Assembly (NCBI GenBank): GCA_961205875.1
Contig: OY540812.1
Span: 5,146,001 to 5,210,000 of the forward strand
Length of the DNA stretch: 64,000 nucleotides
Direction of reading: 5' to 3'
DNA from: Sialis fuliginosa
Taxonomy: Eukaryota > Arthropoda > Insecta > Megaloptera > Sialidae
Both the position numbers and the translations under genes were made by a program. The notes beneath the pieces were generated by a model that saw only the letters and a program-made list of their open reading frames with translations, was not told where the DNA came from and searched no databases. Numbering within the stretch: the first letter of the stretch is position 1; the number at the start of each line of letters is the position of its first letter. Below, one piece after another: positions 3,693-60,272 of this stretch.

Positions 3693-4083
3693 CAGTCGCC
3701 TGCAGAACTCGTCTGGTACCATAAAGGCTAGAATCACTTACAACAGATTCCAAATTTATTGACAAAAATCATCGGTTATCTTTTTCTATCAAGTTTAATA
3801 TATTTAAATACTAAAATTCGGAATATCAAATATTTATTACCACAAAATTTACTTGTACAATTTTCAATAGATTACATAATAATTTAATTGCACAAATATA
3901 TATGAGTACTATAATGGAAGAGTAGTTCTTTATCTAGCAAATGAATTTCAAAATATCTGTCATAGTGTGATACATACATGGAGAAATGATTTAAATATTA
4001 TAATAATCAAATGGGAAGAGCCTACTAAGTTTGTGATAAACGAAAATGAATACAAACTGCAAGACCATTAATGCAGGCGACTG
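3693..4083 (+). mobile_element. 391-bp TA-target MITE (mariner/pogo-like), intact
   Basis: Perfect terminal inverted repeats CAGTCGCCTGCA / TGCAGGCGACTG are flanked by TA at 3691-3692 and 4084-4085. That pattern fits Tc1/mariner-pogo elements, although no transposase is present. A related copy at about 18150-18402 plus 26245-26413 is interrupted by the large hAT insertion. This copy preserves the uninterrupted target ('gagtactataatgg' near 3902-3916) and so serves as an empty site. Confidence 0.8.
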
Positions 4084-5861
4084 TACATGTATATTATAAA
4101 CAACCGAGTTAAATAATATTTTTAACCGACTTCACAAAGGAAAAGGTTTCAATTCAGCTGTATATATTTTTTATGTATGTTTGCATGAGCAGAACTTTGA
4201 CAAATATGCACCAATTTTTGTTTGTTTGAGAGATACTGCCTAGGTGGTTACATATAAAGAATATCAGAATCTAAATACGAACTTCGAAGATATGCCACTC
4301 AAAAGGAAAAATTAAAAAAACTTCAAAAAACCCCTAAAGAATTCAGATCGGTACATTTTTACATTAGTATCGTGAACGAAAGAAAATTCTACATCCAGAC
4401 ACACAGACACTATAATTTATTAAAGAAAAATAGAAAACCGACTAAATTATTAGGTATACTTTTCAACACTAACTTAATTAATAAAATTTAGAAAATTGAA
4501 AAATGGTTCGCTTGATTGATATCCAGGTTTTCGTATATACTGTAATTGTTCTTTGCTAATTAGTTTGTTTAAATTATCATTATTGTTAAAACTGTATTTT
4601 TGTTTTTTCCTGTGTACTATAAAAAGCAATCTTTAAATACTGTTTTGACTTTAGTATTGAATTTCTGTAAAAATCCTTCTCATTATATTTCATTATTATT
4701 AATTTGCTTTATTATTATGAAACATAATCATAAAATTTAAGATTCAGGTTAAAATTTACATATCAGAAACTAAATTCATATTGATAAGATCTTAAGAGAA
4801 AATATAATCAATATGAAAAATTAATATCATATTCTCGAATATTGTCAACGTATAAATATTGAAATTCTGTTATAATAAATGGTTCATGGGACTAATAGAG
4901 GTATGGAAAAGGAAGTCTTTTAAATAATTTCTTGTGGCTAATGTCAAAAGTAAATAAATAAGTTCATTGAACTAACTATTAATCAGTATTTTTCTTTTAT
5001 AATATATTTTCTTCATAATTATGTATTTTTGGCGGAAAAAAATTTCGACAATTTTCTGTTAAAAATATACGTACAAGAACCTTTATAAATTTTTTTAACC
5101 ATATTGCAATTTTAAAATCGATTCAAAATTAGTCGTTTTAGTTTGTAGTATCAATCAGTATCATAGCGTAAATTCCTCCTCCCCCTCCTCCCATTGAAAG
5201 AAAAATAATGAACCCCTTCAACATAGACATCGTCCAATTTTTTTCTAGAAAGAATTTTAAATTAAAAAATGGAGGACAATTAAAATATAGAACTTATTAC
5301 AAAGGATTTAGTTTTTTCTTTCTTTTCTAATGCATTAGGTATAAAATTTAAACTTTTTATTCATATAAATAAAATTGATAAATTAATTTAGACTTTTGTT
5401 TTGAACAAACACTTTACATAGGTCCAATACAGGCCCTCTAGCAGATGCAGGCCTTGCGGGCCTTACGCTTATACAGCTCTGGTTACAATAAGATCGAAGT
5501 TTCATAAATATAAATATCTTTTTATGACTCAACATTTAAAGTCTTGACCACGCATTTATATTGACAAATAAATACGTACTATTGAAAGATTATAACAGTT
5601 GTATTATAGAACTGATTATTTTTCTATTGTAATATGATCAAGATTACCAAACAATAAAAGTAAATTTGTTTTTGCTATTCTGTCAGATAAAAAGAAACCA
5701 TTTTTGTATTATAATCACGAGATTGTGACAAAAAACCATCATCATTCTACCTGCTGGTGTAGGTGATAGGGTATCTTTAAACCGAGAACCATCGAGTCTT
5801 GTGCCGTTATGCATTTTGGTACATACTCATCAAATCTATCATCATACATCACCCTTAAATA
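4084..5861. other. AT-rich DNA with a family R fragment
   Basis: A fragment of the repeat family described at 40881-41180 lies at about 4340-4420 in reverse orientation ('atcgtgaacgaaagaaaatt'). The remainder is AT-rich without supportable features. Confidence 0.5.
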
Positions 5862-16026: not shown

Positions 16027-16225
16027 TACTAATGTTATAAGTACGAAAGTAACCCTATCTGTCTGTTTGTTAACTTTTCACGACTAAACCGCTGAACCGA
16101 TCTTGAAATTTGGCAGAGAGTTAATTTGCATCCTGAAGAATGACAGCTATTTTCTATCCCGAAAAACTACTAGATAAAAAAATACAAATTCCACGTGGAC
16201 AAAGTCGCGGGTAACTGCTAGTTTA
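16027..16225 (-). repeat. RTE-type LINE/SINE tail, reverse copy
   Basis: Reverse complement of the tail at 48579-48750. Recognisable parts are 'aaccgctgaaccgatctt', 'tttggcagagag', 'ttccacgtgg', 'aaagtcgcggg' and a closing 'taactgctagt'. Insects carry many such truncated RTE or SINE tails. No reverse transcriptase frame is attached. Confidence 0.65.
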
Positions 16226-16639
16226 CTATATTTATATCAAATCTTAGTTTTCTAGGTCGAACGGTTCAGTAGCTAAAATCCTGTGACAGACAGACAGACA
16301 GGCGGGTATAGTGATTACGGTGCGAAGCACTAAACATATTTTTTTCTTGTTGAATTTGGATTTAAGTTTTTTTTTAAATAGAATAAAAAAAGCGAAACAG
16401 TTACGAAAATCAATAATTTTGCATTCTTAAAAGTTCTTTCCCCGGTTATCAAAAAATTACTTTAGCTTCTGGATGATTCAATTTTTACGAAAGTTTTGAC
16501 GGGATTATTAATTCGAAAATGTAAAATCAACTTTAACAAACATTAAACGCGGTGTATCAAAGTAAGTACCACTTTATCCCAAATTCACCATATGTACGTA
16601 TAAAAACAAGCCAAATTGATTAAGTTAAAACAACAATAA

Positions 16640-18149: not shown

Positions 18150-18402
18150 GGGCTTCAGAAGTCTTCTGCTACCGTAAAGGTCAGAATCGCTTACAACAAT
18201 ATTAAGACAAACATCATCGGTTATTTTTTTCTAGGGTGGATCTTATAAAGGTACATCATTTTAAATAAAAGCACAAATATACGTCCATTTCATTAATTAA
18301 TTTTATATCAAGTTTAACATATTTAAATATACTAAAATTCGGAATATCAAATATTTATTGCCACATAATAATTTAAACGCTCAAATATATATGAGTACTA
18401 TA
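18150..18402 (+). mobile_element. Left half of a MITE split by the hAT composite
   Basis: Aligns with 3693-3911 of the intact mariner-like MITE ('aatcgcttacaac', 'atcatcggtta', 'cggaatatcaaatattta', 'atatatgagtacta'). Its continuation is 26245-26413, so the two halves form one element interrupted at GTACTATA. The outer left end is degraded. Confidence 0.75.
18395..18402 (+). repeat. 8-bp target duplication, left
   Basis: GTACTATA here is repeated exactly at 26237-26244. Eight bases is the duplication length of hAT transposases. Confidence 0.9.
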
Positions 18403-18654
18403 CAGGGCCGGCCGAACGGCCAGGCGACCCAGGCGACAGCCTGGGGCGCTAATTTCGTGGGGGCGCCAATTATTTTAAACTTTTTTTCTATGTTCTGTTC
18501 TAGGGCGCCAAATTTAAGCTATATATATTTTTTGAATAATAGTTTTGATTTTTTCTGCAAAATAATTCATTTTACTTAATAAAATGCTTAATATCAAAAA
18601 TAAATTATTTATTAAACATTTTTTTACAAAACTTGAAAAGCACAGTGCCAAATC

Positions 18655-18889
18655 TGTGGGTGGCTTTGCTAATTCTTGTAACAATTCCGGTTAGTGTAGC
18701 TAGTGGTGAAAGAAGTTTTAGTAAATTAAAATAATTCATAAAAACTTATTTGCAATCGGCTATGATAGAAGATAGGTTGAATAATTTGGCTATTCTTTCA
18801 ATTGAAAATAAGGTTGTAGCAAACCTCAATTTTGAGACAGCAATCGATAATTTTGCAGATATGAAAGCCAGGAAGAAATCTTTTATATA
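18655..18889 (+). pseudogene. hAT transposase C-terminal remnant, copy 1
   Basis: Frame from PNLWVALLILVTIP through VSVASGERSFSKLK, then FIKTYLQSAMIEDRL and LNNLAILSIENKV, to a stop after KARKKSFI. This is the C-terminal dimerisation region typical of hAT transposases, near the ZMYM/DUF4371-like group, where 'ASGERSFSKLK' is a familiar signature. A TAA interrupts the frame right after SKLK. The N-terminal zinc finger and catalytic core are missing, so it cannot make an active enzyme. Confidence 0.8.
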
Positions 18890-18965
18890 ATTTTAGTTAT
18901 ATTATATATTATTTATCAATTATATGTTATATTATATTATTATATTACACTAATGAATTAATAAC

Positions 18966-21900
18966 TCATACGCTAACAAAGAAGTAAATTGAATAGTTAA
19001 TATCTCAGCTTGGCGCGATCGAAGAGACTCCAGTTTTTTTTTTAAAATGTAGCTTACACTATTATCTTTAAGAACATCACGCACTTAAAGACCTTCGCGT
19101 GCTCCTTCCCTTTTTAAAAACAAGTTAAAACTAAAAAAACAAATTAAAACTCATACGCTAACAAAGAAGTAAATTGAATAGTTAATATCTCAGCTTGGCG
19201 CGATCGAAGAGACTCCAGTTTTTTTTTTAAATGTAGCTTACACTATTATCTTTAAGAGCATCACGCACTTAAAGACCTTCGCGTGCTCCTTCCCTTTTTA
19301 AAAACAAGTTAAAACTAAAAAAACAAATTAAAACTCATACGCTAACAAAGAAGTAAATTGAATAGTTAATATCTCAGCTTGGCGCGATCGAAGAGACTCC
19401 AGTTTTTTTTTAAAATGTAGCTTACACTATTATCTTTAAGAGCATCACGCACATAAAGACCTTCGCGTGCTACTTCCCTTTTTAAAAACAAGTTAAAACT
19501 AAAAAAACAAATAAAAACTCATACGCTAACAAAGAAGTAAATTGAATAGTTAATATCTCAGCTTGGTGCGATCGAGGAGACTCCAGTTTTTTTTTAAAAT
19601 GTAGCTTACACTATTATCTTTAAGAGCATCACGCACTTAAAGACCTTCGCGTGCTCCTTCCCTTTTTAAAAACAAGTTAAAACTAAAAAAAAACAAATTA
19701 AAACTCATACGCTAACAAAGAAGTAAATTGAATAGTTAATATCTCAGCTTGGCGCGATCGAAGAGACTCCAGTTTTTTTTTTAAATGTAGCTTACACTAT
19801 TATCTTTAAGAGCATCACGCACTTAAAGACCTTCGCGTGCTCCTTCCCTTTTTAAAAACAAGTTAAAACTAAAAAAACAAATTAAAACTCATACGCTAAC
19901 AAAGAAGTAAATTGAATAGTTAATATCTCAGCTTTGCGCGATCGAAGAGACTCCAGTTTTTTTTTAAAATGTAGCTTACACTATTATCTTTAAGAGCATC
20001 ACGCACTTAAAGACCTTCGCGTGCTCCTTCCCTTTTTAAAAACAAGTTAAAACTAAAAAAACAAATTAAAACTCATACGCTAACAAAGAAGTAAATTGAA
20101 TAGTTAATATCTCAGCTTTGCGCGATCGAAGAGACTCCAGGTTTTTTTTTTAAATGTAGCTTACACTATTATCTTTAAGAGCATCACGCACTTAAAGACC
20201 TTCGCGTGCTCCTTCCTTTTTTAAAAACAAGTTAAAACTAAAAAAACAAATTAAAACTCATACGCTAACAAAGAAGTAAATTGAATAGTTAATATCTCAG
20301 CTTGGCGCGATCGAAGAGACTCCAGTTTTTTTTTAAAATGTAGCTTACACTATTATCTTTAAGAGCATCACGCACTTAAAGACCTTCGCGTGCTCCTTCC
20401 CTTTTTAAAAACAAGTTAAAACTAAAAAAACAAATTAAAACTCATACGGTAACAAAGAAGTAAATTGAATAGTTAATATCTCAGCTTGGCGCGATCGAAG
20501 AGACTCCAGTTTTTTTTTAAAATGTAGCTTACACTATTATCTTTAAGAGCATCACGCACTTAAAGACCTTCGCGTGCTCCTTCCCTTTTTAAAAACAAGT
20601 TAAAACTAAAAAAACAAATTAAAACTCATACGCTAACAAAGAAGTAAATTGAATAGTTAATATCTCAGCTTGGCGCGATCGAAGAGACTCCAGTTTTTTT
20701 TTAAAATGTAGCTTACACTATTATCTTTAAGAGCATCACGCACTTAAAGACCTTCGCGTGCTCCTTCCCTTTTTAAAAACAAGTTAAAACTAAAAAAACA
20801 AATTAAAACTCATACGCTAACAAAGAAGTAAATTGAATAGTTAATATCTCAGCTTGGCGCGATCGAAGAGACTCCAGGTTTTTTTTTTAAATGTAGCTTA
20901 CACTATTATCTTTAAGAGCATCACGCACTTAAAGACCTTCGCGTGCTCCTTCCTTTTTTAAAAACAAGTTAAAACTAAAAAAACAAATTAAAACTCATAC
21001 GCTAACAAAGAAGTAAATTGAATAGTTAATATCTCAGCTTGGCGCGATCGAAGAGACTCCAGTTTTTTTTTAAAATGTAGCTTACACTATTATCTTTAAG
21101 AGCATCACGCACTTAAAGACCTTCGCGTGCTCCTTCCCTTTTTAAAAACAAGTTAAAACTAAAAAAACAAATTAAAACTCATACGGTAACAAAGAAGTAA
21201 ATTGAATAGTTAATATCTCAGCTTGGCGCGATCGAAGAGACTCCAGTTTTTTTTTTAAATGTAGCTTACACTATTATCTTTAAGAGCATCACGCACTTAA
21301 AGACCTTCGCGTGCTCCTTCCCTTTTTAAAAACAAGTTAAAACTAAAAAAACAAATTAAAACTCATACGCTAACAAAGAAGTAAATTGAATAGTTAATAT
21401 CTCAGCTTGGCGCGATCGAAGAGACTCCAGTTTTTTTTTAAAATGTAGCTTACACTATTATCTTTAAGAGCATCACGCACTTAAAGACCTTCGCGTGCTC
21501 CTTCCTTTTTTAAAAACAAGTTAAAACTAAAAAAACAAATTAAAACTCATACGCTAACAAAGAAGTAAATTGAATAGTTAATATCTCAGCTTGGCGCGAT
21601 CGAAGAGACTCCAGGTTTTTTTTTAAAATGTAGCTTACACTATTATCTTTAAGAGCATCACGCACTTAAAGACCTTCGCGTGCTCCTTCCCTTTTTAAAA
21701 ACAAGTTAAAACTAAAAAAACAAATTAAAACTCATACGGTAACAAAGAAGTAAATTGAATAGTTAATATCTCAGCTTGGCGCGATCGAAGAGACTCCAGT
21801 TTTTTTTTAAAATGTAGCTTACACTATTATCTTTAAGAGCATCACGCACTTAAAGACCTTCGCGTGCTCCTTCCCTTTTTAAAAACAAGTTAAAACTAAA

Positions 21901-24583
21901 AAAACAAATTAAAACTCATACGCTAACAAAGAAGTAAATTGAATAGTTAATATCTCAGCTTGGCGCGATCGAAGAGACTCCAGTTTTTTTTTAAAATGTA
22001 GCTTACACTATTATCTTTAAGAGCATCACGCACTTAAAGACCTTCGCGTGCTCCTTCCCTTTTTAAAAACAAGTTAAAACTAAAAAAACAAATAAAAACT
22101 CATACGCTAACAAAGAAGTAAATTGAATAGTTAATATCTCAGCTTGGCGCGATCGAAGAGACTCCAGTTTTTTTTTAAAATGTAGCTTACACTATTATCT
22201 TTAAGAGCATCACGCACTTAAAGACCTTCGCATGCTCCTTCCCTTTTTAAAAACAAGTTAAAACTAAAAAAACAAATTAAAACTCATACGCTAACAAAGA
22301 AGTAAATTGAATAGTTAATATCTCAGCTTGGCGCGATCGAAGAGACTCCAGTTTTTTTTTAAAATGTAGCTTACACTATTATCTTTAAGAGCATCACGCA
22401 CTTAAAGACCTTCGCGTGCTCCTTCCCTTTTTAAAAACAAGTTAAAACTAAAAAAACAAATTAAAACTCATACGCTAACAAAGAAGTAAATTGAATAGTT
22501 AATATCTCAGCTTGGCGCGATCGAAGAGACTCCAGTTTTTTTTTAAAATGTAGCTTACACTATTATCTTTAAGAGCATCACGCACTTAAAGACCTTCGCG
22601 TGCTCCTTCCCTTTTTAAAAACAAGTTAAAACTAAAAAAACAAATTAAAACTCATACGCTAACAAAGAAGTAAATTGAATAGTTAATATCTCAGCTTGGC
22701 GCGATCGAAGAGACTCCAGTTTTTTTTTAAAATGTAGCTTACACTATTATCTTTAAGAGCATCACGCACTTAAAGACCTTCGCGTGCTCCTTCCCTTTTT
22801 AAAAACAAGTTAAAACTAAAAAACAAATTAAAACTCATACGCTAACAAAGAAGTAAATTGAATAGTTAATATCTCAGCTTGGCGCGATCGAAGAGACTCC
22901 AGTTTTTTTTTAAAATGTAGCTTACACTATTATCTTTAAGAGCATCACGCACTTAAAGACCTTCGCGTGCTCCTTCCCTTTTTAAAAACAAGTTAAAACT
23001 AAAAAAACAAATTAAAACTCATACGCTAACAAAGAAGTAAATTGAATAGTTAATATCTCAGCTTGGTGCGATCGAGGAGACTCCAGTTTTTTTTTAAAAT
23101 GTAGCTTACACTATTATCTTTAAGAGCATCACGCACTTAAAGACCTTCGCGTGCTCCTTCCCTTTTTAAAAACAAGTTAAAACTAAAAAAACAAATTAAA
23201 ACTCATACGGTAACAAAGAAGTAAATTGAATAGTTAATATCTCAGCTTGGTGCGATCGAGGAGACTCCAGTTTTTTTTTAAATGTAGCTTACACTATTAT
23301 CTTTAAGAGCATCACGCACTTAAAGACCTTCGCGTGCTCCTTCCTATTTTAAAAACAAGTTAAAACTAAAAAAACAAATTAAAACTCATACGCTAACAAA
23401 GAAGTAAATTGAATAGTTAATATCTCAGCTTGGCGCGATCGAAGAGACTCCAGTTTTTTTTTAAAATGTAGCTTACACTATTATCTTTAAGAGCATCACG
23501 CACTTAAAGACCTTCGCGTGCTCCTTCCCTTTTTAAAAACAAGTTAAAACTAAAAAAACAAATTAAAACTCATACGCTAACAAAGAAGTAAATTGAATAG
23601 TTAATATCTCAGCTTGGCGCGATCGAAGAGACTCCAGTTTTTTTTTAAAATGTAGCTTACACTATTATCTTTAAGAACATCACGCACTTAAAGACCTTCG
23701 CGTGCTCCTTCCCTTTTTAAAAACAAGTTAAAACTAAAAAACAAATTAAAACTCATACGCTAACAAAGAAGTAAATTGAATAGTTAATATCTCAGCTTGG
23801 CGCGATCGAAGAGACTCCAGTTTTTTTTTAAAATGTAGCTTACACTATTATCTTTAAGAGCATCACGCACTTAAAGACCTTCGCGTGCTCCTTCCCTTTT
23901 TAAAAACAAGTTAAAACTAAAAAAACAAATTAAAACTCATACGCTAACAAAGAAGTAAATTGAATAGTTAATATCTCAGCTTTGCGCGATCGAAGAGACT
24001 CCAGTTTTTTTTTAAAATGTAGCTTACACTATTATCTTTAAGAGCATCACGCACTTAAAGACCTTCGCGTGCTCCTTCCCTTTTTAAAAACAAGTTAAAA
24101 CTAAAAAAACAAATTAAAACTCATACGGTAACAAAGAAGTAAATTGAATAGTTAATATCTCAGCTTGGTGCGATCGAGGAGACTCCAGTTTTTTTTTAAA
24201 TGTAGCTTACACTATTATCTTTAAGAGCATCACGCACTTAAAGACCTTCGCGTGCTCCTTCCTATTTTAAAAACAAGTTAAAACTAAAAAAACAAATTAA
24301 AACTCATACGCTAACAAAGAAGTAAATTGAATAGTTAATATCTCAGCTTGGCGCGATCGAAGAGACTCCAGTTTTTTTTTAAAATGTAGCTTACACTATT
24401 ATCTTTAAGAGCATCACGCACTTAAAGACCTTCGCGTGCTCCTTCCCTTTTTAAAAACAAGTTAAAACTAAAAAACAAATTAAAACTCATACGCTAACAA
24501 AGAAGTAAATTGAATAGTTAATATCTCAACTTGGCGCGATCGAGGAGACTCCAGTTTTTTTTTTAAATGTAGCTTACACTATT
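18966..24583 (+). repeat. Satellite array, about 30.5 units of 184 bp
   Basis: Tandem head-to-tail units begin 'tcatacgctaacaaagaag'. They contain 'tcagcttggcgcgatcgaag', a T tract, 'tagcttacactattatcttt', 'gcatcacgcac' and 'accttcgcgtgct'. Monomer starts are 184-185 bp apart and most monomers differ by only a few bases. Marker variants recur at multiples of the unit (for example the T-rich form at about 20139, 20876 and 21612, and 'catacggtaac' at 20448 and 21185), showing local multi-monomer duplications. The last unit is partial and ends in 'attattattattacac'. No frame is conserved, so this is non-coding. Confidence 0.95.
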
Positions 24584-25543
24584 ATTATTATTACACGAAA
24601 TATTAATTTTTTGAAGCAGAAGTAGGCTAGATTTAAGGGAAAAATAGTAAAAAAAATCTTTTTTTGAAAATAAAAGTTTATTTCATTTTTTTGACTTTGT
24701 AAACAAATGTTAACGTCATGCAATTTTATTATAATTCAAATGGTTCATAACAGAGGAGAAATATCTGCCATGAGTGTCATGGGACTTTCTTATACGTAGT
24801 ACAGAGATTAAACAGTGTGCTTGTTTGCCATAGGTACCATGGGACTTTCTTATACGTAATACTGATAGTGAACAGTGTAGGTGAATCTAAATAATTACAT
24901 AAAAAATTTCTTTCTGGCTAAATTATAAATGTTGGAAAAAAATGTATAGGGAATAAATTATAGATAATAACATACTCGACATTTTTTATCTAAAACATTT
25001 TTTCTTAATTCAAAAATAATTCGTTAATTCAAAAATTTACAAGAGTAAACATCTGATTTCAGTTATTACGTTGTTATATAATGGAGAGAATAATATTACC
25101 TTTTTTTTATTATTAAAATTATATTTTTATAAATTATATAATTATTATTAACTATAAACAATGAGGATATGTACATTCGTTAACAAAACTTAGTTTTATT
25201 GCTCTTTCGACAAGTGCATGATGTAAACATACGTTAACAAATAAAAACCATTACATAAATATCAGAACCGAAACAAAAAAATCAAATAAATAATATGAAT
25301 CACAATGTACATACCTGGTAAACACTATACAAAAAGTTAATTAGCAAAATCACGCGTATTATAAAAATTAGACGATAGTCGATACTTCTTCAGCGACAAT
25401 TCGCTCTAATTTAAAAAAACGGTTACTCTGATGAATGTAACAATATATTTTTTTTAATATGCCATCCGTTCATCATTATTGATAAATTTTCAATTTATTA
25501 GAATCTATAGATTGGTTTAATACTTGGATAAGTAAAAAAAAAA
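24584..25543. other. Spacer between satellite and second hAT copy
   Basis: AT-rich sequence with an internal repeat: 'catgggactttcttatacgta' occurs at about 24778-24798 and again at about 24838-24858. The same motif with related neighbours ('atagataataa', 'catttgaattataa' in inverse) occurs at about 43261-43520. This spacer therefore holds pieces of another interspersed repeat, not only hAT sequence. No frame found. Confidence 0.6.
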
Positions 25544-26236
25544 CAGGGCCGGCCGAACGGCCAGGCGACCCAGGCGACAGCCTGGGGCGCTAATTTCGTG
25601 GGGGCGCCAATTATTTTAAACTTTTTTTCTATGTTCTGTTCTAGGGCGCCAAATTTAAGCTATATATATTTTTTGAATAATAGTTTTGATTTTTTCTGCA
25701 AAATAATTCATTTTACTTAATAAAATGCTTAATATCAAAAATAAATTATTTATTAAACATTTTTTTACAAAACTTGAAAAGCACAGTGCCAAATCTGTGG
25801 GTGGCTTTGCTAATTCTTGTAACAATTCCGGTTAGTGTAGCTAGTGGTGAAAGAAGTTTTAGTAAATTAAAATAATTCATAAAAACTTATTTGCAATCGG
25901 CTATGATAGAAGATAGGTTGAATAATTTGGCTATTCTTTCAATTGAAAATAAGGTTGTAGCAAACCTCAATTTTGAGACAGCAATCGATAATTTTGCAGA
26001 TATGAAAGCCAGGAAGAAATCTTTTATATAATTTTAGTTATATTATATATTATTTATCAATTATATGTTATATTATATTATTATATTACACTAATGAATT
26101 AATAACAAGATAATTTTCTCACGCTTTTTTTTTTTGTGCGGATAATTTTTAATGATCGTCACTGTGGCGGTGGAAAGGGGGGGGGGCGTCAAAAAAAATC
26201 TCGCCTGGGGCGCCAGAATCGCAAAGGCCGGCTCTG
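25544..26236 (+). mobile_element. Second hAT copy, inner left end to outer right end
   Basis: Positions 25544-26106 repeat 18403-18965 with no net length change and, by eye, no differences (offset 7141). It then continues with about 130 bp containing a G run and 'cctggggcgccagaatcg' to the right terminus. On its own this would be a 693-bp deletion derivative with both ends. Confidence 0.85.
25796..26030 (+). pseudogene. hAT transposase C-terminal remnant, copy 2
   Basis: Same frame and the same internal TAA after SKLK as copy 1, so the defect predates the duplication. Only the dimerisation region survives. Confidence 0.8.
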
Positions 26237-26244
26237 GTACTATA
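26237..26244 (+). repeat. 8-bp target duplication, right
   Basis: GTACTATA, identical to 18395-18402. Confidence 0.9.
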
Positions 26245-26413
26245 AATGAAGAGTACTTCTTTATCTAGCAAATGAGTTTCAAAATATCTGTCTTTGTTTG
26301 GTGAATGGAGAAATGATTTAAATATTATAATAATCAAATTAGAGGAGCTTACTAAATTTGTGATAAGCGAATTTGAATGAAAACTGGACGACCACTTCTG
26401 CATTTCACTGTAC
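26245..26413 (+). mobile_element. Right half of the MITE split by the hAT composite
   Basis: Matches 3912-4083 ('gagtacttctttatctagc', 'gagaaatgatttaaatatt', 'tttgtgataagcg') and ends GCATTTCACTG before TA, a variant of the family terminus. Confidence 0.75.
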
Positions 26414-26614
26414 ATGATATGTAGTAATGTAGTTAAATGTAGATTTTCTTTTTTTGTACTAAAGTGCTTGATTAGTTAAGTAATTTTAAAAAAACTAAAA
26501 AAAATTGTTCAATATTTCATATATTTTCCAATAAATTCATAAATATTTTTTTTATTTCTCTAATTTAATTTTTAGACATTCATGTATCAAATTTAAAAAT
26601 CGATTGTAAGTGAA

Positions 26615-26697
26615 GTATCAAATTAGAGGAGCTTACTAAGTTTGTGATAAGCGGATTTGAATGAAAACTGTAAGACCACTTTTGCATTTCACTGTAC
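26615..26697 (+). mobile_element. Third copy of the same MITE, right end only
   Basis: Repeats 'aattagaggagcttactaa' and 'gcatttcactgtac' from 26338-26413. Confidence 0.65.
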
Positions 26698-29600
26698 ATT
26701 TTTACGTTATTTGTATAATTCATTTATGTAGTAGCAATAAATTTTGGCTTTATTTCTCATCATCAGTGTCAGAGTATATATTAATAGATAGATAGTTTCT
26801 ATTTTGATTTCAATAGAAAAGAAACACTAATTTTTTTTTCGCCGGCGTTAACACGAATAGAAAATAAATTGTACAGAAACGTATCGGGGTAGTTTATCTA
26901 GTTGATTAATTTGTGTAATTTTTATAACCTTATTAAAAAAATTACAACAGTAAACATAGTTTGAAGTAAGGTGCTACACGCACATTCTATTTATTATCAA
27001 ACTCTAATGACGTAGGTTCGGCCAGCTATAAGTTTATTAACACCTCCAAATTGTCTTTTTATCTACACTGCTTATTACTATTTTTAGACACATTGTTGTT
27101 ATAAATAGAAGAAAATTATCCGACTCGGACGTTACACCGATTTATCTTCATGATAAATTGTTTCTCTTTTCAGAACTTTTAGATTATTTTACTGATTTTA
27201 TATTTATTATTTTCCAAATTTATTTTTTACTTATCTGTACACCATAAAAAATTTACAAATATATCACTGTGTAATAGACGTTTCACAAGTTATTAATAAA
27301 ATATTTACGCGATATTTTAAGTTGATAAAAATTAACGTAATGAAGTTGAGTAATTAATAATAATAATTAGTTTATGAATTTCTTTATACATACTTTTCAT
27401 AACGAGTTATTTTATTCAGATTAATTTATTGATATATTATGATGTAATATAATATGTTAGGCACTGTTAGGTATATATTTATTAAGATATTTTGTTATAT
27501 CTAAATATGGAATAATACATTATAGAGCGTCCATTAATTATGTAATGTTTTGGGTAGAGGGAGGCTCCGTAAAACCTTACTTATCCTTACGTAAGTTTTT
27601 TTCTTCTAATTAATTATTTTAAAATACGTTAATTTAAACTAGCTTCATCTGTTGTAAAAGTTTTTTCGTATTACATTTTTTAACCAATGAATTTTGCTAC
27701 TAGGTACTTATAGATAAATATATTTAAAAAAAAAACGTATGGTTAGGGGGAAGGGGTCATCTTATACTTACAGATCCTTACAATGATTTTGAAATACTCT
27801 GAATTAGTATTTCGATTCAAATATAAGATTACTAAATAAAACATGTGTTATGCATGGGACAGACAGATAGACAGACACGGAACGAAAAGTATTTGTCTTG
27901 GCCTGAAACGGAAAGATCAAGTTAAAATTTTTTTTAAATCGGAGAGAAATTTTGTTTTTCATTATAAAACGATCAAAAAGCGTCTCGTATATATCTTCGA
28001 TATGGCGAGGAAGCAATAGATTTTTTAACTTTTAATTAATTGTAAGTCTGAAAGGCTTTTAACGTATGTTACTTTACACATTTGCAAATAATGTATAAAA
28101 CATTGAACTGTAATACATAATATACATATATATTAATTAATAGTCATAACACATATAAAAATGACCACGATTTAACCTTCAGACGTATTTTTTATGTAAG
28201 TATAAGCCGTGAATTAAATATAGATCTTATGTTTAAATGTTAAATTATTAGTATATTTACATTTTTATTATTGAAAGAAGTCAATAATTTTGAAAATAAC
28301 AGTTTTCAAAACAATATTTTCTATGATCTTGCATTATAAAAATATCAATCGCAGATTCATTTATTTGGTACATTTATGTAAAAAAAAATTATTCAGATAT
28401 CTGAGAATAACAAGTGCTATTTTTAGAATTGATAAAATATTCATTATTTATTTAATTTAAGATTTAGCATACATTGGTATTTCCAAAGAGTATACTTAAT
28501 AAAATATCTTATAGTAATGTGTAAGGTACTATCATTTTAAATTAGAAAATTAGTGTGAGGTCACTTTTTATTAGTTTGTGACGTAGCTACATTGTGCTAA
28601 TATTTGCAATAACATATGCCTCATATGGGAAGTGATACATTTATGCAATTACCTACTTTAAAATTATTATGACGAAAAATATAAACGTTTACTACAATTG
28701 ATAAATAGTATTTGTTTAAATCTGATGGCGTAATCGGTGTTTTTCCTTCATACAATTTTACTATTCATCCTTACTGCATTGTAGAGAATATGAATTCTTA
28801 TTTCATCAAATAAAAATACTTAATTTTACTTTAATATTACTATTGTTAATGTTGAATCTAGAAAATATGAATAATTTAATTTAATATAACGGGGTTGCAT
28901 TTAATATGTTATTAGGTAAAAATTTTAGAACTCATAAATCAAAATATTAAAATAAAACCAGGAAACAAATAATATAGGATTTGTTTAAGCCGGAAAATTC
29001 GATACACGAAGTATTTTTTCAAAATTATATATTATTTTGTAATAATAAAAGAAAACTTAATAATATAACCTGTAACATTTCTTTTATATTATTATATATT
29101 ACTTCACACATATGTTTTACTTTTGTGAGTAATATTTTATACATAGTGTTTAAGAAAGGGAATAGATTAACTAAACTGATATGTGGAATATAAATTATAT
29201 TAATATCAGTATATGTATACTGAATACAAAAAATTTCACAAAAGTTTGTATAAAATGACTTGTAATTTGAAATACAAATTAATCATTTCCGTTGGGTTAT
29301 TGTGTGACACTTCAAAAAGCGGATATTATATATTCAAATTGTGATTCGTTAGTTTATATTAACCCCTAAAATATTTAAAATACTTGCCAGGGCAGGAATA
29401 ATCACGATTTATTAAAACATATTTATTTAAAAATTCACTAGCCATGCAAAAATAGTAAAATTTAAGTTACAATATATAAGTTTAGAATGAGAAATTAAAA
29501 AGTCCTAGCTAAATCATCGAAGATAGAAGACCAAAAAAAGTTATAAGTTTGTTTCCGAAATTCATTTTAGATTATTATAATTAAAAACTGTAAATTTTTA

Positions 29601-43010: not shown

Positions 43011-46000
43011 TTTTTGAGTAGATGCTGTGCATAAGAAAATGCATAATTGTATTTTTTAATTTTATCTGTCAAAGTACATTATGTAGTTAAAATATTACTT
43101 TTGACAATTCAAGAAAATCGATGTTTTTTTAGGGTTCCGTCAAAACGAAGATTTTTTGTAGAAATTATACAAAAAGTAATAAATTTTGATGCATATTTAA
43201 TATTGTATTAATAATATTATTATCATAGATGTAGTAAAGAACAAGTTACTAAATATACTACTGTATGAAAATATCTGCCATGGGACTTTCTTATACGTAA
43301 TCTTGACAGTGAACGGTGTACGTGATTCTTATTTTATTAAAACATATTTCTGACAAACTAATAAAAGATAGAATAAAATGAATGGGACATAAACTATAGA
43401 TTTATTCTCTGTTATGAACCATTTGAATTATAATTAATTTTTTTTCTTCAAAAATTTGTTTTTTCGAAAAAATGGATAGAACATAAACTATAGATAATAA
43501 TATTACTTACAATTTTTAACTTGACCATTTTTCTCTAATTCGCACGGTTTCAAAGTAATTTGAAAAATTCAAAAATCGAATAGGAGGTTTCCTACCCAGA
43601 TAAAAATTAATCTTAAATATAAAATTTCACCCTTTTGAGTTACAGCGCTTACAGATAGGCACACAGACATCATGACGAAAATAGTCATAATGGATTCAGG
43701 GAAGGTCAAAGTGGATAATTCCATCAAAATCAGGATTTCGAAAAAAAAAATCGGCTTCTAAATACTTATACTATATGTATTATGTATATTTTAAATACAC
43801 GGGTATAAGAAAGTAAAAATATGTTAAACAAACGTTAAGATATATTATACAAGTCCAAAAACAACAAGTTAATTAGTTATATTGTATATAGTGTAAGAAA
43901 CATGTCATGTGTTGGTTGAGGGGGGATTCTCATATTGTTAATTATCATTATGGACTCAAGTAATAACTTATACTTAATATAATAGTATGCCTTTTTGATT
44001 ATATAAAAAGATATGTTGGTTTTCTAAGTGCCACGCGTCTAGACAATACTATATGCAAGTATAAATTAAAATATGTAATTGTTCTGATTTCATTATAATT
44101 GTTAATTGATGCAACAAATTTGCATTTGTTGTTCGGAAACATTTAATTTGTTATTCTGTTTATACTATAATATTTTAAACTTATATCTTATCTAAAATAA
44201 TTTATTACTCTGGTCTCGTATTTAAATTATCAAGCATTGTCTTATGTTTAATTACATAAACGTTATTATATTGCTTTTTAACCTATGATTTTTTAAATAG
44301 ATTATAAATTATAAATTAACTGTAATTTTTCAAAAAACAAAATATTGTTTTAAATTAGTGAGTAAATTATTTTTTTTGGAATTTAAGACAACGCCTAAAA
44401 TTTTTAACTTATTTCAGGATTTTTTTTCGTATCAAAATAAAATATAATATAAATATAATTATACAAAAAACATTTTTTTAGTAAATTTTTTATGTTTTTT
44501 GGGGTCAAAGCGTACTCCTCGAAAAAAGGTAGGTGGGTGGTGGAAAGTAAATCTCCACTTGAAGTGATTTGAAACTAAAAATAATACTATTATCTAGAAT
44601 CAGACACTTATATTAATAAAAAACAGAATGGCGGACTTATAAAAAAAAATTCACAAATTGTTTTTTCTTAGTGTGTAGAACAACGTGTGTTAAAATTACA
44701 GCCCGATCGGTTGATTAGAATTTTGTTTCTGTTTCCCACCAACCGAAAAAAAGTGATTTCGAGAAAAACGCGTTTAAGGATTTAGTAACAGATGTTACAT
44801 TAACACGGTCCGTTGTTTTTTATATGCTATAACTTTGTAAATACTTTGAATGTCGATCTACAATTTTCACTTTTCTAAGTATTAAAAAATCGAAAATTTT
44901 AAATCGTCACATTGCAATACTGCTTTAAGACATGTAAAAGTTAATGATTTTTATTAAGATTAACTGCAACAAAAAATGTCCCTTGAGATGGTTTCTTTCT
45001 TTCGGAACGATCTAAAGCACATTACAATGATGTCTACGAAGAAATAATGCGTATATGAACAATCTAACATATAAATTCCAAACACACAAATAAAATAAGT
45101 GGCAAAGTCTATTATTGGGTAACCTTCCAGCTAGAAAATGGGGATTCAAATAGTATTTCTATATCTTTAATACCAAATATTTATTACAGAGCACGTACTG
45201 CTATTTCGTTTCTTCCTTGGGCACTTATTTTCTAAAGAAATGACAAAAATTTGGATGAATGTGTTTTTTATTGTAATCAGTTACTCTTATTGAATTTTTG
45301 TGAGTGATGAAATTATTTAGTTAAAATGGGGAATTCGTTATTAATATTCTATTATATGAGTTGAGCATTTATAGTACAGTAGAACTCTTTATAAGTTCTA
45401 AGCTATGGGACCTAAAATTCTCAGAATTAAGGGTACCCCTTCCACCAAAATACCGATCTAATGAAATGAAACGGAAATAGCTTTCTCTCACACACTTTAT
45501 TCAGAGCGATCTAACATAACCCCCGTGACACTCTGGTGGTAAAATTGAAAAGTTATCTGACAGTTCATCATTTGTAATATATGGCGTCTTCAAAAAAAGA
45601 TATAGTGACTATATTAGAGTTTTATTTGAATACTAATGTAGGTATTTGATTACATATTGTTTTTTTTTCGTCTGTTAAAAAATTCATATTTTGGATTTAA
45701 GTTTTATGCACGAAATCTTATTTTTTTTATAAAATAGGGACATTTATCAATAGTTATAAGTAAATCTTGACTTATATCCAGAAGCCAAGATCCATAGATG
45801 ACCGCGGAAGTTCAAGAGTTTTTTATTAATAAATTTAACATTTAATAAGTATTTATTTCCATCAGCTTTCTTTATTTGGTGTCCATAGCTGACATTACAT
45901 TGTAGTGAATATCTTGAACACTCTTTCAATGTTTATTTTGTGATATCACGTTGTTTGATTGAACTAAAAATGATGTGTATACATTTGAGATGAATGTAAT

Positions 46001-47373: not shown

Positions 47374-48578
47374 ATGCAGGTGTGATCTTCAGATAATATA
47401 TTTAAAAGAATATATCTGGAAATAGAATTTATAGATTTTCAGTTTTTTGAAACTTACCTGATAACCTATTCTAAATTTTCTGTTTAAAATTTAAAACTTT
47501 GTTCATTCGTCCAGAATTAAATTTGCATACTTTTATGTCAGGGTTCGAAATTGTTCGATAATTATTTGATAACTTTAAGCATTGTTTTATGATTATATTT
47601 CATTCATTTAATTTTTAAGAGCTGTGCGATGATTTTTAAATGTCGCTACTTCAAATATTATTTATGTTTTAGTACAGTTTGTTTATTTTTGTTTAAATTA
47701 TTTACTCTCTTACATTTTTATAAATATTTAAAGATATTTCAACACCTACATATATCTAAATTAAAATTTTAACATTATTTATTTAAATAAAAAAATTAAA
47801 AAGAGCCTATATTTTTTTAGATAAATTACATTTAAAAATCAAATTATACATATGTACTTACTTATATTTAAGTTATTCCATATGATTTAAACAAAATTCG
47901 AAATCACATGCTTCAGTTGGATAAAATATATTAGCATATAACATGCCTCTATTCATATACAAATAATTCGCAGCAATTAAAACACGTTTAAACACTCATG
48001 AAACTAATAACGTTAACAGATTTTGTTCGTTGTTCTGAATTTTTAAAGAAATATTGTGAATTAATACCCATAGAAAGCAACACGAATTATAAAATGAGGT
48101 GTACACAAGTGTGTACGGCGGGCGTTAATGGGTTAATACTTATAACGAATATAATAAATTGTTCAAATACCAAATCTACCAGCGGCGAGATAAGTAGCAC
48201 AATAAAATAATTATGCCATTTTTCATCATTATTTCGTCCATTATATGTTTAAATTTATAATTCATTTAGGAGATAAGTGTCGTTTTGCCAGCTCTTAGAA
48301 CCATACATCTGTATACAGAAAGGATGTGACACAAGTTGTGTATATACATCCATTTTCCTGCCGCTTTATTGAATTCATAAATGACCGTGAGTCACCGCCA
48401 AAGGATGTAATACGGCAGACGCCCACCTCGTCATTTGTGTTATGCAAATGTGTGTTTATTTTTCTTTTTTTTTCTGCGAGACTTGTCTCATCACATACAT
48501 ATGAAGTATTAGAGATGATATGATGGTTGAATTGTTTCTTTAATTTGTTTATTTATTCAGTTTCGTTTTTATACTAAA
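47374..48578. other. AT-rich DNA, no gene supported
   Basis: A 70-codon frame (47998-48210) and a 65-codon frame (48326-48523) have no recognisable domain and flat codon use. Confidence 0.4.
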
Positions 48579-48750
48579 CTAGCTGTTAGTCGCGACTTCG
48601 TCCGCGTGGAATTTATATTTTTTTATCTAATACATTTTCGGGGGGATAGAAAGCAGCCTATATTCTTCCTCAGGATGCAAGCTATCTCTCTACCAAATTT
48701 CATCAAGATCGGTTCAGCGATTTAGCCGTGAAAGTATAATATAATACTTG
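48579..48750 (+). repeat. RTE-type LINE/SINE tail
   Basis: 'actagctgttagtcgcgact', 'cgtccgcgtgga', 'aggatgcaagctatctctct', 'atcaagatcggttcagcg' and 'tagccgtgaaag' occur in the usual order of truncated RTE or SINE tails in insects. The same tail forms the spacers of the adjacent 5S genes and occurs reversed at 16027 and 52985. Confidence 0.7.
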
Positions 48751-49354
48751 CGAACGGCTTGTAACTTCACCCGTGTTCTAGTCGTTTTTATGAACATCCT
48801 ATAATTTATAAATATATTTGTACTAGTGTTAATTTGGAACAATTTTTTATCCCTATTAGGTTGGAAAAATAGTTTGCCTGAAAATCACGTTTATGATTTT
48901 AGAATTAGTTATGCAGATAAAATATAATGAATAAGATAAAATGAGTTTTGGAGAATTTCTTCTTAAAGGAAGACACCCCTTAAATTTTATGTTTCTATTA
49001 AATGGATCCAAATGTTTAGGCTTAGTGTTGATGAGTCAGTCACTTAGGACTCTCTTTATATATTGAAATTAATATCATTTTTATCTTATAAAATTTTATA
49101 TAATCAATACGAATTTTATGTGTAATATACGAATAGAATAAAATCATCATTAAATAAAAAATATTTCTTAATATGACTGAATTTTTTAATATAATCGAAC
49201 CATTGTTTTGAAATTGGCTGCGCTTATTTTTTTAAATCAACTATTGGCAATCGCTTGCATATTTTGGCTAAAAATATAAATACGTAGGTACCTAATTGAA
49301 ATTTATTAGAATGAAGTTGCATTTTTATAAAAAATCGTAGCAAATTATATTTTT

Positions 49355-49553
49355 CGTTCGCGTGGAATTTGTATTTTTTTTATCTAATCAATTTTCGGGA
49401 TATACAAAGGTATCAGGATGCAAGCTATCTCCTTGCCAAATATCATCAAGATCGGTTCAGCGATTTAAAGGTAACGAACAAATAAACAGATAGAGTTACT
49501 TTCGCATGGATCAAGTAGGCTTATATAAACCTTGTAACGTTCTTAAATATACA
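49355..49553 (+). repeat. RTE-type tail forming the 5S upstream spacer
   Basis: Starts 'cgttcgcgtggaatttgta', contains 'atcaagatcggttcagcg' and 'acagatagagttactttcg', and then runs into 'ttatataaaccttgtaacg' just before the 5S gene. Equivalent spacers occur between the later genes. Confidence 0.75.
49522..49528 (+). promoter_or_regulatory. TATA element of 5S copy 1
   Basis: TATATAA begins 32 bases before the first 5S base. Insect 5S genes commonly need such an element near -30 in addition to the internal promoter. Confidence 0.7.
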
Positions 49554-49671
49554 GACAACGGCCATACTATATTGAAAGCACCAGTTCTCGTCTGATCACT
49601 GAAGTTAAGCAATATCGGGCGCGGTTAGTACTTGGATGGGTGACCGCTTGGGAACACCGCGTGCCGTTGTC
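49554..49671 (+). rRNA. 5S rRNA, copy 1
   Basis: 118 nt starting GACAACGGCCATAC and ending GCCGTTGTC, whose ends pair perfectly as helix I. It contains the conserved internal promoter core ('agttaagcaatatcgggc', 'ggttagtacttggatggg'). A run of seven T follows as polymerase III terminator. It differs from the other copies at 'catactatattgaaagc'. It has an intact TATA at -32, so it could be functional. Confidence 0.85.
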
Positions 49672-49678
49672 TTTTTTT
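49672..49678 (+). terminator. Polymerase III terminator of 5S copy 1
   Basis: Seven consecutive T directly after the gene; similar runs follow the other copies. Confidence 0.75.
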
Positions 49679-49861
49679 GCTATTTTATTTATATTAGTAC
49701 TATAGAATTTATATTTTCTTATCTAATCAATTTTTCGCTATATACAAAGGTATCAGGATGCAAGCTATCTCCCTACCAAATATCATGAAGATCGGTTCAG
49801 CGATTTAAAGGTAACTAACAAATAGACAGATAGAGTTAATTTCGCATTGATCAAGTAGGCT

Positions 49862-49868
49862 TATATAA
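49862..49868 (+). promoter_or_regulatory. Orphaned 5S TATA element
   Basis: This TATATAA sits in the same spacer context as the others, but the 5S gene that should follow 32 bases later is displaced by a 967-bp insert. Confidence 0.65.
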
Positions 49869-49886
49869 ACCTTGTAACGTGCTTAA

Positions 49887-50853
49887 GAATGTATTGGATG
49901 TATTTAAAAATGCTACCAAATACATGAAAATTGGTTGGATTGTTCCCATTAGCATTCTTATGCAATAGACAAAATATTAAATTGATTCACTGAGCCGTTT
50001 AGGAATTATATTGATTTAAATTTAACATGTGTTCTTATGGGAAACTGATATTTTTCGGCATTTTTTAGGTAAAACACATTGATAAAATGCTACCGATTTT
50101 CTAATTTTTTGAGGGAGTGTAGTATTTGATTAGTTGAACAATTATGCAAAATATCATATGTTTTCACTAAACCGTTTCCGAGAAATAAATTATAATACAA
50201 CAAAATTTTAAATTTCCCGCTCTACGATTGTTATGCATGTAAATTTGATAACAATGTAAACAAAGTATTTTTTGAAAAAACGATTATAAAAGATCTTTGT
50301 TTTTTATAATTATGTCATATATTATGTTTCTTATAGAGAATTAAAGAAAAATTTAGTACATAGTGCAATTAAAAGTGCATAAATAATAAAATATCAAGAT
50401 ATTCTATTAGTGTTTGACAGCAATATTTACCAACCTGAAAATGACAATAGCGTAGTGAAAACTGATAATTAGAATGTGAAATATTTATGTTAATAATGAT
50501 AAATAACAATAATTGTTATATTTATAACACAGGATTGCGTATTTTTAATAATTATATAAACTATATTTATTAATTTGCAGCTATAAATAACGTAAATTAT
50601 GTTTAAAATATATTTTTGTTAGGTTCAATTTGCCGTATAGTCAGTGTCAAAATAATAAACTATCTTTATTAGAATTTGTACAAATTTAACAAAATAGTCA
50701 TTGGAGAGGAAAAATTAGCTTCATATATGTAAGTTAACGACTCTAGTTATAATTTGTATTATTTATAACATCTATTACGATATTTATAACGCAGATATTT
50801 GTATATTTCAAAATTTAGCTACTTTTGTATCTGATTGTCCGTCCATATAATCC
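49887..50853 (+). mobile_element. 967-bp insert splitting a 5S spacer, TTAA on both sides
   Basis: The repeating spacer is continuous up to 'cgtgcTTAA' (49883-49886) and resumes at 'TTAAatatacag' (50854-50857). The inserted AT-rich sequence has no frame and no clear terminal repeats. TTAA duplication is the mark of piggyBac-type elements, but the ends do not look like typical piggyBac termini, so a different origin is possible. Confidence 0.6.
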
Positions 50854-50864
50854 TTAAATATACA

Positions 50865-50982
50865 GACAACGGCCATACCATATTTAAAGCACCAGTTCTC
50901 GTCTGATCACTGAAGTTAAGCAATATCGGGCGCGGTTAGTACTTGGATGGGTGACCGCTTGGGAACACCGCGTGACGTTGTC
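50865..50982 (+). rRNA. 5S rRNA, copy 2, probably impaired
   Basis: Same length and core as copy 1. The end reads GACGTTGTC instead of GCCGTTGTC, breaking one pair of helix I, and the upstream insert has removed the TATA from -32 (a weaker TATAA lies at about -19). Internal promoter elements are intact. Likely a decaying copy. Confidence 0.75.
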
Positions 50983-51169
50983 TTTTTTTTTGCTATTTTA
51001 TTTAGTACTATAAAATTTCTATTTTCTTATCTAATCAATTTTTCGGGATATACAAAGGTATCAGGATGCAAGCTATTTCCCTGCCAAATATCATCAAGAT
51101 CGGTTCAGCGATTTAAAGGTAACGAACAAATAAACAGATAGAGTTATATTCGCATGGATCAAGTAGGCT

Positions 51170-51176
51170 TATATAA
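51170..51176 (+). promoter_or_regulatory. TATA element of 5S copy 3
   Basis: TATATAA at exactly -32, as in copies 1 and 4. Confidence 0.7.
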
Positions 51177-51201
51177 ACCTTGTAACATGCTTAAATGTAC
51201 A

Positions 51202-51319
51202 GACAACGGCCATACCATATTTAAAGCACCAGTTCTCGTCTGATCACTGAAGTTAAGCAATATCGGGCGCGGTTAGTACTTGGATGGGTGACCGCTTGGG
51301 AACACCGCGTGCCGTTGTC
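51202..51319 (+). rRNA. 5S rRNA, copy 3
   Basis: 118 nt with perfectly pairing ends GACAACGGC/GCCGTTGTC, complete internal promoter, TATA at -32 and a following T run. It starts 337 bp after copy 2 in the same orientation. Confidence 0.85.
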
Positions 51320-51509
51320 TTTTTTTGCGATTTTATTTATATTAGTATTATAGAATTTATATTTTCTTATCTAATCAATTTTTCGCTATATACAAAGATT
51401 TCAGGATGCAAGCTATCTCTCTGCCAAATATCATCAAGATCGGTTCAGCGATTTAAAGGTAACGAACAAATAGATAGATAGAGTTACTTTCGCATGGTTC
51501 AAGTAGGCT

Positions 51510-51516
51510 TATATAA
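51510..51516 (+). promoter_or_regulatory. TATA element of 5S copy 4
   Basis: TATATAA at -32 relative to the gene. Confidence 0.7.
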
Positions 51517-51541
51517 ACCATGTAACGTGCTTAAATATACA

Positions 51542-51659
51542 GACAACGGCCATACCATATTTAAAGCACCAGTTCTCGTCTGATCACTGAAGTTAAGCAA
51601 TATCGGGCGCGGTTAGTACTTGGATGGGTGACCGCTTGGGAACACCGCGTGCCGTTGTC
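51542..51659 (+). rRNA. 5S rRNA, copy 4
   Basis: Appears identical to copy 3 by eye. It starts 340 bp after copy 3. Downstream the spacer is a more divergent tail that finishes with 'catttataatattagtatgg', the usual RTE/SINE 3' end, after which the array stops. Confidence 0.85.
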
Positions 51660-51840
51660 TTTTTTTGCTATTTTATTTAGTGCTATAGAATTTCTATTTT
51701 CTTATCTAATCATTTTTTTGGAATACAAAGTAACTTATATTCTTCCCCAGAATCCAGATTATCTTCCTGTCAAACGCCATCGATTAGTTAAGTTAACTCA
51801 TAGACAGACAGAGTTATTTTCGCATTTATAATATTAGTAT

Positions 51841-53890: not shown

Positions 53891-53920
53891 GAGGAAACAA
53901 TAAATAAATACATTAATATG

Positions 53921-54885
53921 TCAGCTTGGTGCGATCGAGGAGACTCCAGTTTTTTTTTAAATATAGCTTACACTATTATCTTTAAGACTATCTAATGCCC
54001 GAAGACCTTCGTAACCTCCTTCGGCTATTATTATGAAATTTAAATTGAAAATTTAACAAATAAGTTGAATAGTTAATATGTCAGCTTGGGGCGATCGAGG
54101 AGACTCCAGTTTTTTTTTTAAATATAGCTTACACTATTATCTTTAAGACTATCTAATGCCCGAAGACCTTCGTAACCTCCTTCGGCTATTATTATGAAAT
54201 TTAAATTGAAAATTTAACAAATAAGTTGAATAGTTAATATGTCAGCTTGGCGCGATCGAGGAGACTCCAGTTTTTTTTTTAAATATAGCTTACACTATTA
54301 TCTTTAAGACTATCTAATGCCCGAAGACCTTCATAACCTCCTTCGGCTATTATTTAGAAATTTGAATTGAAAATTTAACAAATAAGTTGAATAGTTAATA
54401 TGTCAGCTTGGCGCGATCGAGGAGACTCCAGTTTTTTTTTTAAATATAGCTTACACTATTATCTTTAAGACTATCTAATGCCCGAAGACCTTCGTAACCT
54501 CCTTCGGCTATTATTATGAAATTTAAATTGAAAATTTAACAAATAAGTTGAATAGTTAATATGTCAGCTTGGCGCGATCGAGGAGACTCCAGTTTTTTTT
54601 TTAAATATAGCTTACACTATTATCTTTAAGACTATCTAATGCCCGAAGACCTTCGTAACCTCCTTCGGCTATTATTAAGAAATTTAAATTGAAAATTTAA
54701 CAAATAAGTTGAATAGTTAATATGTCAGCTTGGCGCGATCGAGGAGACTCCAGTATTTTTTTAAAATATAGTTTACACTATTATCTTTAAGACTATCTAA
54801 TGCCCGAAGACCTTCGTAACCTCCTTCGGCTATTTTTAAGAAATTTAAATTGAAAATTTAACAAATAAGTTGAATAGTTAATAGC
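53921..54885 (+). repeat. Second satellite array, six units of about 161 bp
   Basis: Units begin 'tcagcttggcgcgatcgagg' at about 53921, 54081, 54242, 54403, 54564 and 54725. The first about 85 bp (core, T tract and 'agcttacactattatcttta') match the 184-bp satellite at 18966-24583. The rest ('gcccgaagaccttcgtaacc') is a diverged version with a different linker. No hAT ends flank it that I can see. Confidence 0.9.
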
Positions 54886-57264: not shown

Positions 57265-57478
57265 CAGTGCCGGCCTTAGCAAGTCTGGCGCCCTGGGCGA
57301 GATTTATTTTTCCACCTTCTCTCCCCCTAAAAAAATGTTAAAAAATCACCGAAAATGTCAATTAAAATTGATAAATTAATAATTCATATCTCAACTTGGC
57401 GCGATCCTACAGACTCCACCTGGCCTGGCGCCCCTGGCGGCCATCCTGATTCCCCCCCCCCCCCTAAAGCCGGTACTG
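57265..57478 (+). mobile_element. 214-bp hAT MITE containing one satellite core
   Basis: Ends CAGTGCCGGCCTTAG and, reversed, CAGTACCGGCTTTAG lie between perfect CCTGTATA octamers (57257-57264 and 57479-57486), a clean hAT insertion. The inner part at about 57375-57420 reads 'catatctcaacttggcgcg' and 'agactccac', matching the satellite core. 'ctggcgccctgggcg' and a C run resemble the composite hAT element ends. Confidence 0.85.
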
Positions 57479-60243: not shown

Positions 60244-60272
60244 TCCTTAATATATATAAAGCTCAACGTCTC

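Follow-up and report, generated by a model that had tools for sequence, protein, structure and literature searches.

In the parts of the literature drawn on here, DNA enclosed by the ends of transposons, some of them of the hAT superfamily, has been described in several forms, and in this study they are compared with one locus, a 184-bp satellite-like array between hAT ends in a 64-kb stretch of Sialis fuliginosa (Megaloptera; assembly GCA_961205875.1, contig OY540812.1, positions 5,146,001 to 5,210,000; hereafter the window, to whose first letter all positions refer). The composite insertions of maize consist of Ac ends with 8-bp target-site duplications (TSDs) and flanking DNA, closed by microhomology joints of 4 and 9 bp in two alleles and by homologous recombination in others, and McClintock's bz1-m4-D6856 is interpreted in that work as genomic DNA and a truncated Ds enclosed by TSDs (PMC4270019). 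Among 100 animal genomes surveyed, 370 Pack-TIRs (TIR, terminal inverted repeat) were recorded, 208 of them hAT, with microhomology of median 2 bp at a breakpoint of 190 (67.6%) (PMC8277862). Satellite-like repeats are carried inside Tetris of Drosophila virilis (PMC4079207), and repeats borne by miniature inverted-repeat transposable elements (MITEs) are described from Xenopus, bivalves and others (PMC9659126), with tandem repeats in MITEs also treated for corals (PMC2872659). Double insertion into one TSD, in turn, leads to transposon dimers such as those of hobo (McGurk and Barbash 2018, as described in PMC7214746 and PMC12628747).

The locus of S. fuliginosa is real, well bounded and more complex than a single hAT with a satellite in it. 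As in the composite insertions described for maize Ac/Ds, termini of the hAT superfamily with an 8-bp TSD surround a truncated and a complete element, with additional DNA inside and a microhomology joint, whereas the maize cargo is ordinary genomic DNA from a known donor and here it is a satellite array with the donor unseen (PMC4270019). With gap-filled Pack-TIRs it shares captured DNA between hAT ends and microhomology at a breakpoint, and it departs from them in that the cargo includes a second hAT copy and in that the survey has no insect example (PMC8277862). Among the matches listed in open-licence literature, as titles and abstract openings, none named a satellite array within a composite hAT insertion. 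We read the locus, with a probability of roughly one half, as a composite hAT insertion made by break repair, in which a pre-existing satellite was captured and not born in the element. Since the donor is unseen, the locus may be said to behave like a composite insertion or a Pack-hAT, with membership in either unproven.

Anatomy of the insertion

The outer 5' end, CAGGGCCGGCC, lies at 18403, and its inverted partner, GGCCGGCTCTG, ends at 26236. The terminal inverted repeats are short and start with CAG, as those of hAT insertions do, agreeing in 10 of 11 bases (CAGGGCCGGCC against CAGAGCCGGCC), and both ends are abutted on the outside by the octamer GTACTATA, which is the 8-bp duplication of a hAT insertion; the hAT-like ends and identical octamers reported in the initial annotation are therefore confirmed. 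In a scan with the single end consensus CAGNGCCGGCC, allowing at most 3 mismatches and pairs 60 bp to 15 kb apart, 71 hAT-end-like pairs were obtained, and their flanking octamers agreed at 8/8 positions in two (18403/26236 and 57265/57478), at 6/8 in one and at four or fewer in 68. When all 340 left-right combinations were taken, in any order and at any distance, the agreement was 8/8 in two, 7/8 in one, 6/8 in one and 5/8 in 13, and the chance agreement of random 8-mer pairs in the window is 1.3e-4. The octamer GTACTATA itself is not rare in the window, occurring at 7 places on the plus strand and 2 on the minus strand.

The DNA hosting the insertion is a repeat, and a relative of it was found in the left part of the window (Table 1), where GTACTATA is present singly at 3906 and where the joined flanks of the insertion, with one octamer kept, align through that position. 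The initial annotation had taken a repeat at 3693-4083 for a MITE related to the hAT that displays the same target uninterrupted; the uninterrupted target stands, but the repeat is a relative of the host DNA and not of the hAT. Because the outer octamers are identical, agreement at 8/8 positions is rare among end pairs, and the related repeat holds a single GTACTATA, it is well supported that the outer 5' and 3' ends with their one TSD represent one integration event.

Self-comparison of the interior revealed that 18402-18965 equals 25543-26106, a direct repeat of 564 bp with 100% identity. The first hAT copy ends after 563 bases, where the array begins, and is without the last 130 bp of the element; the second runs on to 26236 and is complete at 693 bp, so that the locus has three hAT ends (two 5' and one 3') and encloses a complete hAT. 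Where one hAT insertion had been proposed, the outer ends thus enclose a 5' fragment, the array, a spacer and a complete second hAT. The 693-bp element carries a putative remnant of a hAT transposase C-terminus, broken by an in-frame stop: one of its three peptide pieces matched Dimer_Tnp_hAT (E 0.0016; 18.7 bits, under the Pfam cut-off of 21.4), another had no match and the last only a chance-level match to DUF6104. Having two ends of its own, this enclosed element might move alone.

Immediately before the inner 5' end, at 25544, stands AAAAAAAA, which does not match GTACTATA. As no octamer lies between the two hAT copies, a double insertion into one TSD was rejected; the locus is similar to the hobo-type dimers in having two hAT copies in direct orientation, and is unlike them in that no TSD copy separates the hATs and the inner end abuts A10 (McGurk and Barbash 2018, as described in PMC7214746 and PMC12628747).

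Tandem Repeats Finder (TRF) delimited the array, a block of 5.6 kb, at 18956-24585, with a unit of 184 bp, 30.6 copies and 98% matches, in keeping with the 184-bp satellite first reported between the ends. The 30 full monomers have a mean identity of 98.5% and differ on average in 2.8 columns; eight equal the consensus, and variants in the other 22 are scattered along the array, which is therefore long, tandem and homogeneous, as satellite DNA is. There is no higher-order repeat of fixed period in it, the mean differences being flat (2.2-3.1) over lags 1-19, and there are local identical blocks, the longest of 481 bp at a distance of 918. The array is out of phase at its start and its stop, and the monomer at the left edge is just 2 changes from the consensus, which agrees with a longer array having been broken internally. 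Exact matches to the satellite core numbered 0 in viral_contigs and genome_contigs, and those to the hAT end 0 in viral_contigs, these being viral and prokaryote collections that are uninformative for an insect. Separately, a strong strand asymmetry across 20001-24000 (GC skew -0.19, AT skew +0.11) stems from the array, and a direct repeat of 83 bp, 94% identical, is present in the right flank of the insertion (26333-26415 and 26617-26699).

Table 1. Positions of the parts of the insertion and of related sequences in the window
Feature	Position	Strand	Basis or remark
Target-site duplication GTACTATA, left copy	18395..18402	.	paralogous empty site has one copy, at 3906
hAT 5' fragment, bases 1-563 of the 693-bp element	18403..18965	+	100% identical to 25544-26106
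AAC, 3-base microhomology at the hAT/array junction	18963..18965	.	common to hAT and monomer
184-bp satellite-like array, 30 monomers and a partial one	18966..24585	+	TRF, monomer comparison
958-bp spacer ending in A10	24586..25543	+	partly related to dispersed repeat 43271-43576
Complete 693-bp non-autonomous hAT with putative remnant of the transposase C-terminal dimerisation region	25544..26236	+	weak Dimer_Tnp_hAT match
Target-site duplication GTACTATA, right copy	26237..26244	.	identical to the left octamer
Sequence related to the host repeat, with one GTACTATA (at 3906) as empty site	3700..4094	+	pieces 77.5-92.5% identical
161-bp array related to the satellite (6.0 copies), no hAT ends recognised	53913..54883	+	TRF, consensus alignment
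214-bp hAT-type MITE, TSD CCTGTATA	57265..57478	-	satellite core inside at 57372-57418

Joints and formation of the composite

With respect to the joints, the AAC at the hAT/array junction is preceded by further near-matching AT-rich bases. At least 3 identical bases occur in 2.5% of the combinations of hAT position and monomer phase, and a 12-base gapped similarity at the junction has a P of 0.013; microhomology of the kind found in composite insertions is thus present, though short and hence weak. At the other side the array breaks off in the middle of a monomer and is followed by the non-satellite spacer, which is 67-77% similar, over part of its length, to the dispersed repeat named in Table 1. 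Where the spacer meets the second hAT copy, the 5' end of the hAT is clean and adjoins an A tract, as an ordinary insertion at a donor locus would leave it. The sequence from the array through 26236 can accordingly be taken as a single piece of donor DNA, in which case just one illegitimate joint is needed.

In the composite insertion by break repair that we favour, the outer 5' and 3' ends together with the GTACTATA duplication record one integration event, and the interior would most likely have come from a break in or at a hAT, arising from excision, aberrant transposition or a stalled fork. One side of this break would have been the hAT from its 5' end over 563 bp, and the other a donor locus with the order satellite array, 958-bp spacer and complete copy of the 693-bp hAT. 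Both sides would then have been joined through the AAC microhomology, as in the maize Ac composite insertions and the gap-filled Pack-TIRs, with template switching or alternative transposition as the repair route, so that the satellite may have been captured by copying and a transposase may have had some role. This route is preferred because one microhomology joint suffices, because the exact identity is explained if there was one source element, and because it has precedent in the hAT superfamily; an identity over 564 bp is what a shared origin of the two copies in one element or its sister would produce. A perfect outer TSD (8/8) together with an inner 5' end lacking one also speaks for a composite insertion, and the presence of the satellite family outside hAT ends at 53.9 kb for the capture of a pre-existing satellite.

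Macrotransposition is a known process that would likewise leave a perfect TSD at the outer ends and none at the inner end. The composite would here have formed elsewhere and been cut and pasted into GTACTATA as a 7,834-bp unit, with the fragment supplying the 5' end and the complete copy the 3' end. For maize Ac, the joint use of ends from two neighbouring hAT elements, of which one is fractured, is documented (PMC3744419, PMC4270019). However, two near-identical hATs around the array and the earlier loss of one 3' end are required, and the enclosed 693-bp element supplies a nearer pair of ends, which leaves this route unlikely in our estimation.

The anatomy may also be described as that of a solo hAT to which a single loop of 7,141 bp, with the 564-bp repeat at its borders, has been added. 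Satellites are often present on extrachromosomal circles, and a solo 693-bp hAT at GTACTATA might have been invaded, by homologous recombination, by a 7,141-bp circle consisting of the hAT 5' part, the array and the spacer. Such a circle would already have needed the hAT-satellite junction, which is one extra step, and we consider its involvement improbable. The loop topology and the exact identity of the two copies would equally fit an assembly artefact, in which the 564-bp repeat was one node of the graph and the path through the solo hAT locus took in a separate circle or a tandem unit of 7.1 kb. Nevertheless, about 30 monomers are resolved, 22 of 30 with scattered variants, which suggests long reads, and a read of more than 8 kb would span the locus; we regard an artefact, too, as improbable.

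Several points weigh against the break-repair reading. The donor locus is unseen, and within the 64-kb window only the related 161-bp array is present; the 3-base microhomology is weak evidence; and the circle recombination or the assembly-graph loop described above yields an identical anatomy. The partial monomer at the right edge has 3 changes in its first 95 alignment columns, although at least 3 changes in those columns are reached by 4 of 31 monomers, so that monomer edge decay decides nothing on a native array edge. In the maize cases the progenitors are two elements with their ends in reversed orientation, an arrangement not known here (PMC4270019). The animal survey detected no Pack-TIR in insects, and breakpoints in it favoured breaks inside elements over excision gaps (PMC8277862), and both points argue against a gap made by transposase as the trigger. 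The data presented here do not separate break repair, macrotransposition and circle recombination.

Relatives of the satellite in the window

The consensus of the 184-bp unit and that of the 161-bp array agree in 72 of the first 76 aligned bases, and the rest is divergent. No hAT-like pair with octamers agreeing at 6/8 positions or better was detected around the 161-bp array in the scan with the single end consensus, its flanks (53300-53912 and 54884-55500) have no copy elsewhere in the window, and 53500-53912 and 54884-55500 have merely two 9-mers in common. Transposon ends around this array were consequently rejected, there being neither an octamer-matched hAT-like pair nor repeated flanks. 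In Rfam, 20256-20700 of the 184-bp array obtained no match with E up to 1, and 53850-54400 of the 161-bp array obtained one match at E 0.48, far under the gathering score; neither stretch having matched credibly, the arrays do not represent a known RNA gene.

The 214-bp MITE carries a single diverged copy of the satellite core at its positions 108-154, with a score of 59 against at most 26 in 500 shuffles, and 39 of 46 bases at its left end agree with the big element's 3' end when the latter is reverse-complemented. Upstream of this 48-bp core, the homology between MITE and monomer is marginal: in 1000 shuffles its level was reached 39 times for the 184-bp unit and 353 times for the 161-bp unit. 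The nhmmer alignment of MITE positions 50-155 (E 8e-6) shows high bias, and a low posterior in its upstream part.

It was claimed in the initial annotation that the array might have grown within the hAT, and a related hAT MITE with one satellite core copy inside is what growth in place from a seed would call for. Contrary to this, no monomer homology was detectable in the 693-bp hAT, whose local scores reach 20 on one strand and 21 on the other where the MITE scores 59, so the array probably did not grow from that element; a second array of the family moreover lies outside hAT ends, and the second complete hAT and the spacer would go unexplained. Growth in place is accordingly very improbable. 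Like Tetris and the repeat-bearing MITEs, the locus has satellite-like repeats between transposon ends, whereas in those elements the repeat is described as native and here it is absent from the 693-bp hAT; the MITE at 57 kb may itself be a case of the Tetris type (PMC4079207, PMC9659126).

Both hAT-end pairs with a perfect TSD that were found in the window carry the satellite, suggesting that it was either born in such a MITE or captured twice by hAT elements. A wider possibility, which we hold to be unlikely, is that the whole satellite family is a passenger of hAT elements, having begun as the interior of a MITE such as that at 57265-57478, been amplified, and been repeatedly captured and moved by hAT ends, with blocks seeded by transposition. 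As a lead only, since it was picked after the data had been viewed, the motif TTGGCGC (both strands counted) has 24 occurrences within the 184-bp array and 4 within the 161-bp array; the two hAT copies together account for another 4, the MITE for 1 and the other 55.9 kb for 4. It is present in most monomers and twice, on the opposite strand, near the hAT 5' end, and is perhaps a candidate transposase site.

Window setting and significance of the locus

The window has a G+C content of 29.6%, and no stop-to-stop frame of more than 122 codons was found in it. It harbors four 5S ribosomal RNA genes at 49554-51660, in units of about 340 bp, with about 1 kb of other DNA separating the first unit from the other three. 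A dispersed repeat is common to the spacers of the 5S units (49353-49886 and 51014-51534) and to 16044-16230 and 48570-48733, at 73-81% identity, as if a mobile repeat were travelling with the 5S units. Two inverted copies of 907 and 891 bp (60240-61146 and 62226-63116) are 95.7% identical and resemble either one large foldback or two elements in inverted arrangement. Close to their outer ends are runs of GTCT and GACA; runs of this type are ascribed to lepidopteran MITEs in a review (PMC9659126).

In summary, the insertion at 18395-26244 appears to be a recent event whose joints can be read, since it has a single target duplication, a single microhomology joint and a 564-bp repeat without differences. 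Circles, transposons and unequal exchange have all been proposed to explain the arrival of satellite arrays at scattered sites. Composite insertions have been described for hAT elements of maize, and the locus would extend them to a satellite of an animal; it also hints at a way in which a transposon may take up satellite DNA, which it could then move. Over its full 7,834 bp the unit retains both ends that a transposase would need, and the mobilisation of the satellite block in trans, as raised in the initial annotation, would therefore be conceivable. With its exact 564-bp repeat the locus also predicts its own reversal, since recombination between the repeats could delete 7,141 bp, leaving a solo hAT and releasing a 7.1-kb circle. 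Finally, as the satellite core is found in a separate hAT MITE, the transposon as both seed and carrier of a satellite becomes testable in one genome.

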